Assembly (NCBI RefSeq): GCF_030253575.1
Contig: NC_080564.1
Location: 2,276,501 to 2,340,500 of the forward strand
Origin: Rhododendron vialii
Lineage: Eukaryota > Streptophyta > Magnoliopsida > Ericales > Ericaceae
Length of the DNA stretch: 64,000 nt
Reading direction: 5' to 3'
The notes under the pieces were generated by a model. The model ran no database searches. It saw nothing but the letters and a program-made list of their open reading frames with translations, and was not told the origin of the DNA. Each line of letters starts with the position of its first letter. Within the stretch, counting starts at the first letter, position 1. Positions 24,621 to 36,410 of this stretch are shown here, piece after piece. A program made the position numbers and the translations under genes.

Positions 24621-24792
24621 TGTAGACACCCCATTCTGGACTGTCCGGATAATGTCATTTGTCGATCTTTTATTTCCCCAATGATGATTATAGTCGAAAA
24701 CAGATCAAGGATAAGGGTGTGCTTAAGCCTTGAGCATCCAAAACCCATTTCAAACCTTTCAAACCAGAGACAAACGGCCCCAGCAAAACCCA

Positions 24793-26055
24793 ACTGGCAT
24801 ACGCCAGTGTCTTGGTGACGTACGCCAGTAAGCTGCCACGTGTCAGTCATCGACCAGTGGTCCAGCTTATACTGGCTCACGCCAGTAAGAAATGGCGCAC
24901 GCCAGTCAAACCCAGTCAAATCAACTTTATTCAGCCACTTGGGCGGGACTTTTGTGCCACCCTGACGTAGGCTACAGTTCCCCTGATGATTACATTCGGC
25001 AGGGATGTTCCCCCACTCTCCTACATTTACCCTATCACCCTTTCTTCTCTCTCAAGCTTTCCCTCCAAAAACCAACCAATCCAACCAGCCATTACTTGGC
25101 TGGTTACACCCCTCTCTCCTCTATATATACTCCCCCCTCACACTCTTGCAAAGGGTTACCAAGTTCACAAAAGGGTTGGCCTCATTAAGAAGAAAAGTTC
25201 TCTCTTCTTCCTCCTTTCTTGCTTTCTCTCTTCTTCTTCCATTGAAAGAGAAAGGAAAGAAGCCCACTTCCACATACCTCCACTGATATCCAGTCACCAT
25301 ACAACATCCATCTTCAACCTCTAGGCTCTAAACCACCTTCAAACTTCAACACCCAAAAGGTATACCACCTTTGCATTCCTTTCTGTTTTCGGCCCCTGAG
25401 GGGAACCAGCAAGGCCCAGGCTGGTAAACAATACTAGTCCTGGCCTTGAACTGGTAAAAATACAACAATCGTATGCGACGATACTTGGCGCACGCCAGTT
25501 CCTACATGCCGTACGCCAGTCATGGCAGTATGAGCACAACTGGCGTGGGGATCATGGATCGTCATTCCTTTTGTTTTATCTTTCTGTCGATCACCTTAGC
25601 ATGCTAATAACCGGTTTACTGCTTTCCATATTTAGAACTGTTTAGTGGTACTATCCTATCTTTTTCATCTCTGTCATGTAAAGGCCTCTGGGATCCTTCT
25701 GGTCATGTTCCAGAACCCAGATGATGCAAAGCCAAACACTGGAATCAAAGGCAAAGTGGCGTACGGCAGTAATATACTGGCGTACGGCAGTAGGCTTCTG
25801 GGTCCAGTGACTGGCCCTTGCATCTGAAGCGAAAGCTAGGCCTATCTTTTGTCCCACACTGTTTTGGGGTGTTCTGCTTTCTTTCATGGCCTAAAGCCAT
25901 TCGTTTTGCCTGTGACTGTGTATATTCTTCTATATTAAACTGCGTGGTTTGCCCTGGGTGTGCGCTGGTCCTTTTCCAGAGCCCAGAGGGTTGCAAACAA
26001 AGACTGAGAGATCCAACAAGTGGAGTACGCCAGTTTATATGTGGCGTGCGCAGGT
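24793..26055. repeat. Dispersed array of a 16-bp palindrome in the 5' LTR
   Basis: Copies related to the perfect palindrome ACTGGCGTACGCCAGT start at 24793, 24814, 24871, 24891, 25484, 25505, 25755, 25776 and 26019, each matching 13-15 of 16 positions. A weaker copy starts at 26040. Four lie upstream of the TATA box and the rest downstream. Several occur in pairs about 20 bp apart. The 3' LTR has the same set, shifted by 9,793 bp. Confidence 0.85.
25122..25129 (+). promoter_or_regulatory. TATA box of the 5' LTR
   Basis: TATATATA follows a pyrimidine-rich stretch and is followed by TCCCCCCTCACACTC, a plausible start region. It divides the LTR into a U3 of about 500 bp and a long R/U5. Confidence 0.55.
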
Positions 26056-26618
26056 TGTATCACCATGCAGTGGCTCGACCAGTGCATGCTGGCAGAATCT
26101 GCTCACGTCACCTTGTGACAGCGTACTGCAGTTTGCTCGGGATGCTCAGTGCTTGTTCTCAATCTATACTTAGCATCGCAATCAAATCATTCATAAGCAT
26201 TTTGTCACATAAACTGCAATTTGTTACCGCTTTCGTCCCCATTAACTGTTCCCCCGCCCTAACTGGCTAAAAAAATGATAAAATGAGAGAAAAATGCAAA
26301 GGTTTTCATGAAATGCCCGAGTAGAGACCGATCTCCGGATTGGGCGAGAGGGGGTGCCATAAAACCCTTCCCCTCTCGTAACCTGGCTCCCGAACCTCAG
26401 ATATCGAAGGTGACGACGGACCGGTCTACGCCTTTTCAAAATCAAACAAACGTAGCAAAAACGTTTTCGAGTTCGGTTCCTTGGGTGTTCCTACCGCTAA
26501 AACCCGAGTGGCGACTCTGAATCGAGGCGTTTCGCCGCGCTTTTTCCAAAATGGGCCGCGCTCAGTCTTTAAAAAGGGAACCCAAAGATCGAACGATTTT
26601 CGGGGCGCGTGCCCACAG

Positions 26619-26640
26619 TGGCGACTCTGCTGGGGATCGA
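26619..26640 (+). promoter_or_regulatory. Primer binding site, tRNA-Arg type
   Basis: One base after the 5' LTR, TGGCGACTCTGCTGGGGA plus the next few bases is complementary to the 3' end of plant tRNA-Arg(ACG) including CCA, with one mismatch as I recall that tRNA. A tRNA-Arg primer is characteristic of the Tat/Ogre lineage of Ty3/gypsy elements. Confidence 0.75.
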
Positions 26641-33534: not shown

Positions 33535-34180
33535 AGAGTCAAATCAACGACGGTCTGCCCGTCCAACTCTCAACTCAACGACGGTTCGCCCGTCCACTTT
33601 CAAATCAAACGAGCGACGGTTTGCCCGTCCAACTTCAAATCAACGACGGTCCACCCGTCCAAATCCGAATCAACGACGGTCCATCCATCCAAAATCAAAT
33701 CAACGACGATCCACTCGTCCAAATCCAAATCAACGACGGTCCATCCGTCCAAATTCAAATCAACGACGATCCACCTGTCCAAATTCAAATCAACGACGAT
33801 CCACCTGTCCAAATTCAAATCAACGACGATCCACCTGTCCAAAATCAAATCAACGACGATCCACTCGTCCAAATCCAAATCAACGACGGTCCATCCGTCC
33901 GAATTCAAATCAACGACGATCCACCTGTCCAAATTCAAATCAACGACGATCCACCTGTCCAAAATCAAATCAACGACGATCCACTCGTCCAAATCCAAAT
34001 CAACGACGGTCCATCCGTCCAAATTCAAATCAACGACGATCCACCTGTCCAAATTCAAATCAACGACGATCCACCTGTCCAAATTCAGATCAACGACAAT
34101 CCACTCGTCCAAATTCAGATCAACGACGGTCCACCCGTCCAATTTCAAATCAACGACGATCTATCCGTCCCACAGTCTTT
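33535..34180. repeat. Minisatellite C, 30-bp period
   Basis: About twenty-one copies of a unit containing AAATCAACGACGATCCACC and TGTCC. Because 30 is a multiple of three and the unit has no stop in those frames, long open frames run through it on both strands (for example 33450-34244 plus and 33600-34148 minus). They encode decapeptide repeats and are not taken as genes. The array ends about 230 bp before the polypurine tract. Confidence 0.9.
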
Positions 34181-34399
34181 TTCCCCAACAGAGTCGATGC
34201 TGTTGCAAAAAAGATTGTTCCCCAGGAGAGTTCGCATTGTGTGATCTATCGGTCAAAGACAACAAAGCAGCGGTCTGTCCGCCCCAACTTCAAATCAAAC
34301 AGGTCCTTTAAAGTTCATGCATTCTGGATAGCCTCGAAGAGGGTGTCTAGAAAACCTTTGACGTTACTTGTCTCCAGTCAATGGTGCTTCAAGTGCCGT

Positions 34400-34413
34400 C
34401 AAAGGGGGGCTTC
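34400..34413 (+). promoter_or_regulatory. Polypurine tract
   Basis: CAAAGGGGGGCTTC lies immediately before the 3' LTR. A purine run abutting the LTR start is the plus-strand primer of LTR retrotransposons. Confidence 0.75.
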
Positions 34414-36410
34414 TGTAGACACCCCATTCTGGACTGTCCGGATAATGTCATTTGTCGATCTTTTATTTCCCCAATGATGATTATAGTCGAAAACAGATCA
34501 AGGACAAGGGTGTGCTTAAGCCTTGAGCGTCCAAAACCCATTTCAAACCTTTCAAACCAGAGCCAAACGGCCCCAGCAAAACCCAACTGGCATACGCCAG
34601 TGTCTTGGTGACGTACGCCAGTAAGCTGCCACGTGTCAGTCATCGACCAGTGGTCCAGCTTATACTGGCGCACGCCAGTAAGAAATGGCGCACGCCAGTC
34701 AAACCCAGTCAAATCAACTTTATTCAGCCACTTGGGCGGGACTTTTGTGCCACCCTGACGTAGGCTACAGTTCCCCTGATGATTACATTCGGCAGGGATG
34801 TTCCCCCACTCTCCTACATTTACCCTATCACCCTTTCTTCTCTCTCAAGCTTTCCCTCCAAAAACCAACCAATCCAACCAGCCATTACTTGGCTGGTTAC
34901 ACCCCTCTCTCCTCTATATATACTCCCCCCTCACACTCTTGCAAAGGGTTACCAAGTTCACAAAAGGGTTGGCCTCATTAAGAAGAAAAGTTCTCTCTTC
35001 TTCCTCCTTTCTTGCTTTCTCTCTTCTTCTTCCATTGAAAGAGAAAGGAAAGAAGCCCACTTCCACATACCTCCACTGATATCCAGTCACCATACAACAT
35101 CCATCTTCAACCTCTAGGCTCTAAACCACCTTCAAACTTCAACACCCAAAAGGTATACCACCTTTGCATTCCTTTCTGTTTTCGGCCCCTGAGGGGAACC
35201 AGCAAGGCCCAGGCTGGTAAACAATACTAGTCCTGGCCTTGAACTGGTAAAAATACAACAATCGTATGCGACGATACTTGGCGCACGCCAGTTCCTACAT
35301 GCCGTACGCCAGTCATGGCAGTATGAGCACAACTGGCGTGGGGATCATGGATCGTCATTCCTTTTGTTTTATCTTTCTGTCGATCACCTTAGCATGCTAA
35401 TAACCGGTTTACTGCTTTCCATATTTAGAACTGTTTAGTGGTACTATCCTATCTTTTTCATCTCTGTCATGTAAAGGCCTCTGGGATCCTTCTGGTCATG
35501 TTCCAGAACCCAGATGATGCAAAGCCAAACACTGGAATCAAAAGCAAAGTGGCGTACGGCAGTAATATACTGGCGTACGGCAGTAGGCTTCTGGGTCCAG
35601 TGACTGGCCCTTGCATCTGAAGCGAAAGCTAGGCCTATCTTTTGTCCCACACTGTTTTGGGGTGTTCTGCTTTCTTTCATGGCCTAAAGCCATTCGTTTT
35701 GCCTGTGACTGTGTATATTCTGCTATATTAAACTGCGTGGTTTGCCCTGGGTGTGCGCTGGTCCTTTTCCAGAGCCCAGAGGGTTGCAAACAAAGACTGA
35801 GAGATCCAACAAGTGGAGTACGCCAGTTTATATGTGGCGTGCGCAGGTTGTATCACCATGCAGTGGCTCGACCAGTGCATGCTGGCAGAATCTGCTCACG
35901 TCACCTTGTGACAGCGTACTGCAGTTTGCTCGGGATGCTCAGTGCTTGTTCTCAATCTATACTTAGCATCGCAATCAAATCATTCATAAGCATTTTGTCA
36001 CATAAACTGCAATTTGTTACCGCTTTCGTCCCCATTAACTGTTCCCCCGCCCTAACTGGCTAAAAAAATGATAAAATGAGAGAAAAATGCAAAGGTTTTC
36101 ATGAAATGCCCGAGTAGAGACCGATCTCCGGATTGGGCGAGAGGGGGTGCCATAAAACCCTTCCCCTCTCGTAACCTGACTCCCGAACCTCAGATATCGA
36201 AGGTGACGACGGACCGGTCTACGCCTTTTCAAAATCAAACAAACGTGGCAAAAACGTTTTCGAGTTCGGTTCCTTGGGTGTTCCTACCGCTAAAACCCGA
36301 GTGGCGACTCTGAATCGAGGCGTTTCGCCGCGCTTTTTCCAAAATGGGCCGCGCTCAGTCTTTAAAAAGAGAACCCAAAGATCGAGCGATTTTCGGGGCG
36401 CGTGCCCACA
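34414..36410 (+). repeat. 3' LTR (1,997 bp)
   Basis: Same length and ends as the 5' LTR, offset 9,793 bp. By eye the two differ by about ten substitutions (for example GGCTCACG against GGCGCACG at the third palindrome, and AAGGGAACCC against AAGAGAACCC near the end). No insertions or deletions are apparent. Confidence 0.95.

Follow-up and report, generated by a model that had tools for sequence, protein, structure and literature searches.

The window analysed here is a 64,000-nucleotide stretch of the Rhododendron vialii genome, and its positions 24621-36410 are a complete long terminal repeat (LTR) retrotransposon, with near-identical LTRs bounded by TG..CA ends, a target-site duplication, a primer-binding site and a polypurine tract. 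An earlier note on this DNA, made from its letters alone, had described equal 1,997-bp LTRs with about ten differences, an AGGAT duplication, a primer site and a purine tract, and each of these was found. The structural features of the element are as follows.

24616-24620, no strand: target-site duplication AGGAT, left copy (sequence comparison)
24621-26617, + strand: 5' LTR, TGTAGACACC...TGCCCACA, 1,997 bp
25122-25129, + strand: TATA-like motif at LTR 502-509 (position read, function putative)
26619-26636, + strand: primer-binding site TGGCGACTCTGCTGGGGA
31925-32545, + strand: tandem array, 37-bp unit, 17 copies
32596-33266, + strand: tandem array, 50-bp unit, 13.6 copies
33539-34170, + strand: tandem array, 30-bp unit, 20.9 copies, with related arrays in large elements
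34401-34409, + strand: polypurine tract AAAGGGGGG
34414-36410, + strand: 3' LTR, 1,997 bp
36411-36415, no strand: target-site duplication AGGAT, right copy (sequence comparison)

Structure and age of the element

The LTR pair differs by 10 substitutions (7 transitions) and no gaps, a Kimura two-parameter (K2P) divergence of 0.0050. At assumed substitution rates of 1.3e-8 and 7e-9 per site and year, this corresponds to 0.19 and 0.36 million years (My), respectively, in agreement with the young age already proposed. Three minisatellite arrays precede the purine tract in the interior, which, repeat-derived frames aside, holds a single long sense open reading frame (ORF) of 365 codons at 27841-28938. 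The primer-binding site is presumably of the tRNA-Arg type, and transcription probably starts about 30 nt downstream of the TATA-like motif. Within LTR positions 401-500 (window 25021-25120), about half of the positions are mismatched against every other LTR row of the alignment described below.

Composition of the ORF

The same genome contains three large relatives of the element, 20.8-21 kb from end to end, with which the interior was compared. The rows below give the parts of the interior that are related to gag and pol.

27841-28938, + strand: 365-codon ORF, with an N terminus (residues 1 to about 120) of unplaced origin, a post-capsid Gag part (about 120-290) and a segment (295-362) that precedes reverse transcriptase (RT) in large elements
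28393-28434, + strand: zinc-knuckle-like motif CX2HX4HX4C, residues 185-198, aligned with large-element Gag
28981-29368, + strand: pol remnant whose pol frame is interrupted by stops; three large elements match it at 77-79% DNA identity (DNA comparison, tblastn)
29657-30265, + strand: remnant that corresponds to the end of pol plus the sequence after it; two large elements match it at 79-81% DNA identity

The description of this ORF as Gag-like holds for its middle and end. Residues 117-354 and 121-363 align to the post-capsid Gag of the large elements L011 and L013 with 41-42% identity (tblastn, E about 1e-50), and residues 295-362 also align between protease and RT in the polyprotein of L011 and L013 (45%, E about 1e-12). 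The capsid part, in contrast, is absent. The window ORF matched no Pfam family at E up to 1, and at that threshold Retrotrans_gag (PF03732) was absent from all nine family ORFs scanned (the window's and eight relatives); as a positive control, the two Gag stretches scanned from large elements each contained PF03732. No partner similarity appeared ahead of residue 117 in tblastn at E up to 1, and residues 1 to about 120 had no relative outside the element family detectable by tblastn or hhalign. Because no Pfam family was found and similarity to the partner is confined to the post-capsid and pre-RT stretches, this reading frame does not amount to a complete Gag. These alignments indicate a Gag without capsid, in which the zinc-knuckle part remains and no capsid, protease or enzyme domain was found. 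The motif CX2HX4HX4C is here taken to act as a zinc knuckle. Searches of viral contigs and of PDB sequences gave no match to the window ORF. The structure predicted for the ORF alone has a mean predicted local distance difference test score (pLDDT) of 38, with only residues 1 to about 26 (a helix) above 50, a level so low that it weighs neither for nor against a capsid fold.

The claim that the interior carries no pol domains stands as far as profile searches of open frames are concerned. Ten further open interior frames gave no Pfam domain above the curated cut-off (E up to 0.1) and two sub-threshold matches, both unrelated. The interval 28939-31905 does hold pol remnants, listed above, and in this respect the claim needs amendment. 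Pol domains in the interval, which the earlier note had named as a refuting result, were rejected, the profile scan of open frames being negative and the remnants being recognised by DNA comparison and tblastn; positions 29301-29830 (+ strand), without a long open frame, were covered solely by tblastn with most of the partner gag-pol frame as query.

The large gag-pol relatives

The large elements were read in pieces, and the Pfam scan covered one gag-pol frame (L013/L014) and the Gag stretch of a second element (L010). Retrotrans_gag (6.6e-8) is present in the L013/L014 frame, where RVT_1, RT_RNaseH, RT_RNaseH_2, RVT_3 and rve were all above cut-off, together with a weak aspartic protease match (0.075) and a sub-threshold G-patch; in the L010 stretch Retrotrans_gag reached 9.3e-9. 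The earlier note had proposed a search for an autonomous partner, and a large relative with a full domain set and the same LTR ends does exist in this genome. Among the best 150 of 6,545 RT candidates, an open frame of 2,513 codons surrounds 10 matches, and for 5 others the frame measures 2,504-2,510 codons, with the match itself free of stops. In partial LTR comparisons the three large elements showed 3 differences in about 1,000 positions (plus 20 gap positions), 1 in 784 and 0 in 1,067.

The LTR ends are common to large and small elements, the purine-tract stretch is identical between the window element and all three large ones, and the primer site is identical in the one large element in which it was read. 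A short element without detected pol domains has its ends, primer site and purine tract in common with a pol-bearing family. In one partner the domain order is RT_RNaseH, RVT_3 (PF13456), rve, so that a second RNase H lies between RNase H and integrase, which is a trait of the Tat group. The second RNase H in the partner, the tRNA-Arg-like primer site and the 3' tandem arrays would fit the Tat/Ogre assignment proposed in the earlier note, which is tentative. TRP28 (PF04195) was not seen in the four of five antisense frames of at least 150 codons scanned in L014, which is that half of one partner in which the region between pol and the 3' LTR lies. One of these antisense ORFs (L014:5593-6327, minus strand) carries a Plant mobile domain (PMD, PF10536; E 4.8e-27), and the others gave one sub-threshold DUF7745 and, in two frames, no match.

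LTR blocks exchanged between size classes

An alignment combined the window element's 5' LTR and leader with those of eight non-autonomous copies and three large elements, one of the latter represented by fragments of both its LTRs. Two blocks behave differently.

24621-24920, + strand: LTR 1-300, 2.7-3.3% from six of eight non-autonomous copies, 10.0-12.3% from three large elements
25220-25520, + strand: LTR 600-900, exchange block; two large elements differ by 0-0.3% and the third by 22%

In the first block, the window element differs by 11.7 and 15.0% from the remaining two non-autonomous copies, and one non-autonomous copy is only 0.6% from a large element. In the second, the third large element is 0.3-0.7% from two other non-autonomous copies. 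Altogether three types of LTR 600-900 can be distinguished (21-27% between types, 0-2% within), of which two are present in both size classes and the third is confined to three non-autonomous copies. The leader (1998-2690) has no block pattern, all rows being 2.6-7.0% apart. The mosaic suggests that LTR blocks have moved between large and small elements and that both replicate in common particles, since template switching between co-packaged RNAs would be expected to give such mosaics.

Copies of the short family in the genome

Genome searches covered the 532.6-Mb assembly in 13 contigs, and all copy counts are lower bounds. With the LTR as query, 40 places were scored of 2,718 candidates; when paired, ten span 10.8-12.9 kb (the window's included) and three span 20.8-21 kb. 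With the ORF as query, at least 115 matches were obtained from 112 scored of 2,775 candidates, so the copy count suggested by the earlier note reveals a multi-copy family. Eight of the nine other short LTR pairs were analysed, chosen with both LTRs among the 40 best matches, which favours young, complete copies; all eight bear the ORF, and their LTRs differ at 1-11 sites, or 0.02-0.21 My at the 1.3e-8 rate. A 5-bp duplication is present in all four short copies whose 3' LTR end and flank were recovered.

To select copies independently of their protein, 1 kb of non-coding downstream DNA served as query, and 40 of 1,962 candidates were scored. The ORF is present in all 40 of these DNA-chosen copies, without a stop in 35 and in a single frame to residue 365 in 38; both hold for 33, so that the frame is not broken in all other copies, an outcome that the earlier note had named as one that would refute its reading. 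LARDs are large derivatives without coding capacity; assignment to this class was rejected, because 38 of the 40 copies keep the ORF in a single frame throughout. In-frame length variants of 343, 348, 360 and 371 codons occur. All eight ORFs from L074 to L081 have 343-348 codons, and in the aligned rows of L074 and L080, 17 codons are missing in frame directly ahead of the Gag-related part. The ORF of L060 is apparently mosaic, its start resembling a diverged clade and its end the window's clade.

The capsid-less layout also appears in more distant copies. Eleven diverged ORFs were taken from the lower part of the ORF match list, some picked for lack of a stop, and six of them are without a stop in the aligned stretch. 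In all eleven, the N terminus runs straight into the zinc-knuckle part, without space for a capsid. Against the window ORF (residues 1-290), their synonymous divergence (dS) is 0.36-1.03, and the ratio of nonsynonymous to synonymous divergence (dN/dS) is 0.24-0.46. One copy, L047, keeps more linker after the zinc knuckle, as would be expected if the deletions were stepwise.

Selection on the ORF

For the analysis of selection, 26 of the 40 DNA-chosen copies were aligned. An earlier set of 30 copies had been ranked by protein similarity and is biased toward low dN; the DNA-chosen set shows a weaker overall effect. In all 26 copies the length of the ORF is divisible by three. Relative to the window, frame-breaking indels in 29 protein-ranked copies average 3.7 over about 1 kb downstream (at least two in every copy) and 3.6 over 330 bp upstream, where a single copy is free of them. 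Among the 26 copies, the ratio of nonsynonymous to synonymous differences (pN/pS) is 0.40 (0.30-0.52) for the whole ORF, 0.50 (0.34-0.75) for residues 1-120, 0.23 (0.14-0.39) for residues 121-225, 0.65 (0.32-1.66) for residues 226-290 and 0.31 (0.17-0.60) for residues 291-365.

Variants shared by at least three of the 26 copies were then compared with expectation, with transition bias allowed for, variants treated as independent and no correction for multiple tests. Residues 121-225 hold 6 nonsynonymous and 14 synonymous shared variants, which is 0.18 of expectation versus 0.79-1.13 in the flanks (p 0.002), and the contrast between shared and singleton variants gave p 0.018 for the same residues. 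The protein-ranked 30 copies gave a stronger shared-variant value, 0.40 overall, from a biased sample. In protein-ranked copies mean dS is 0.088, against flank divergences of 0.053 downstream and 0.0895 upstream; because mean dS is not below flank divergence, the constraint acts on the protein. The zinc-knuckle region seems constrained, and the whole ORF weakly so. In the three large elements pN/pS is 0.12-0.20 in post-capsid Gag, 0.17-0.28 in the pre-RT stretch, 0.02-0.08 in the capsid and 0.03-0.05 in RT, values that come from small counts and from segments matching the window's only roughly.

Neighbouring sequence

A tRNA-Ser gene (window 37396-37477) begins 986 bp past the 3' LTR, and about 360 bp at window 38772-39141 are 76% identical to their own reverse complement, perhaps a relic of a hairpin-type transposon. 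By eye, tandem gene copies can be discerned on the minus strand at window 39854-45025, 50173-55608 and 61300-61731, with a helicase-like P-loop in two and the third unit represented by one ORF. On the other side, also by eye, an acyl-activating (AMP-binding) enzyme-like gene occupies window 13371-15431, with a partial relative nearby on the opposite strand at 17344-17787.

Comparison with known systems

Recombination is known to connect non-autonomous LTR elements that conserve Gag with autonomous elements (PMC2410132; PMC11302176; PMC9744471). The non-autonomous Athila families of Arabidopsis resemble the window family in being pol-less, in having intact ORFs under purifying selection and in frequent inter-family recombination; their ORFs, however, are Gag or Gag plus Env, and the main text of that study, without the word capsid, reports no capsid loss (PMC2410132). 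In wheat, RLG_Quinta and RLG_Cereba form a non-autonomous and autonomous pair with common LTR ends, primer site and purine tract, in which Quinta has its own ORF and an origin 28-35 My ago; Quinta reportedly provides GAG for particles, whereas the window family has no detected capsid domain (PMC11302176). RLG_Sabrina and RLG_WHAM, also from wheat, are gypsy elements without RT and integrase that co-evolve with an autonomous partner, for which LTR transfer through gene conversion or template switching has been proposed. They differ from the window family in that Sabrina_SA and WHAM encode GAG plus protease, and other Sabrina variants swapped that gene for unrelated short ORFs (PMC9744471). The retained GAG of Quinta, Sabrina and WHAM is taken to serve particles (PMC11302176; PMC9744471).

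TR-GAG elements share with the window element two LTRs, a single Gag-related ORF and no pol, but the active Arabidopsis TR-GAG encodes a GAG of 562 amino acids, unlike the ORF described here, in whose family no capsid domain was detected (PMC8704663). The short-Gag isoforms of sunflower Tyran and Varan are alike in composition, with the nucleocapsid motif present and the capsid absent; they arise by splicing and are considered incapable of particle formation and mobilisation, whereas the window ORF is the sole long ORF of a whole mobile family (PMC7730604). In Retand elements, too, the region from pol to the 3' LTR carries tandem arrays and antisense ORFs, and some defective clusters were recently active. 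Their LTRs, however, are 315-1,194 bp and their antisense ORF is TRP28, whereas the LTRs here measure about 2 kb and the scanned ORFs contained no TRP28 (PMC11963269). A literature search of titles and abstract openings, with most subscription journals outside its coverage, found no mobile family with a capsid-less Gag as its only conserved ORF.

Interpretation

It is probable that the window element was inserted recently and belongs to a long-lived family of non-autonomous LTR retrotransposons that is served by a gag-pol partner, and that its own capsid-less Gag aids its own RNA. Packaging, reverse transcription and integration of the element's RNA would be carried out by proteins of the 20.8-21 kb gag-pol family, as the shared ends and exchanged LTR blocks suggest. 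The 365-amino-acid protein, apparently composed of an N-terminal part, a nucleocapsid-like zinc knuckle and a segment that in the partner lies ahead of RT, most likely binds the element's RNA and may aid its entry into, or copying in, partner particles. A more specific version can be put forward only tentatively: an old, active satellite-like family, from which capsid, protease, RT, RNase H and integrase were deleted, would have kept an adaptor (the zinc knuckle and the pre-RT linker piece) under selection to bring its RNA into the particles of another element.

Several results weigh against service by a partner with an RNA-aiding capsid-less Gag. When flanking DNA of the 30 protein-ranked copies was treated as codons in six frames, pN/pS came to 0.59-0.76 rather than 1; the counting method is biased, and the neutral line was therefore set at the flank values. 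In the shared-variant test the whole ORF reached only 0.51 of expectation against the same 0.79-1.13 in the flanks (p 0.045), a weak contrast. Residues 291-365 were borderline (0.34, p 0.064), residues 1-120 (0.71) and 226-290 (1.06) showed no significant recent constraint, and the contrast of shared with singleton variants was not significant for the whole ORF (p 0.16) or residues 291-365 (p 0.25). For residues 1-130, hhalign gave a probability of 0.2% of relationship to the partner Gag start, and a resemblance by eye is not claimed. The putative leader (25161-27840) contains 39 ATGs upstream of the ORF, one of them (27642) in a frame that stays open beyond the ORF start, and translation of the ORF would need a spliced leader or reinitiation. 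Finally, gene conversion between genomic copies could be the alternative source of the moved LTR blocks.

The rival explanations differ in what they expect of the ORF. The first is the TR-GAG type, to which the earlier note had pointed: the element would retain a working Gag that contributes capsid when the partner forms particles, a role put forward for Quinta, Sabrina and WHAM in wheat. An ORF that is related to Gag and partly conserved agrees with this, yet PF03732 is missing from the window ORF and its eight relatives and present in both large-element Gag stretches, and partner similarity begins only at residue 117; Gag kept in that sense is very improbable, and a plain TR-GAG was rejected for want of a GAG domain. 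A capsid-less Gag might also act as a brake or decoy, holding back the autonomous element by binding RNA or proteins of the partner. Such a role has been suggested for the Tyran and Varan isoforms, whose make-up is the same and for which both dominant-negative action and RNA protection are named (PMC7730604). Selection among element copies would not easily preserve a brake, however, and the copies were inserted recently, which leaves this explanation unlikely. Unlikely, too, is a relic, whose open frame and low dN/dS were inherited from a recent autonomous ancestor, or whose frame is open solely since translation protects the RNA. The youth of the copies, the weak or absent constraint in residues 1-120 and 226-290 and the weak overall constraint in the DNA-chosen set would suit it, but the eleven diverged copies share the capsid-less layout at considerable dS and low dN/dS, and constraint is uneven, being concentrated in the zinc-knuckle part.

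With the capsid lost and the RNA-binding-like end kept, the selected role cannot simply be capsid supply. A family that keeps the RNA-binding-like end of Gag but not the capsid separates the two roles of Gag, and because the same genome contains large relatives whose gag-pol frames are long and open and which have LTR blocks in common with the short elements, the pair can be studied together.

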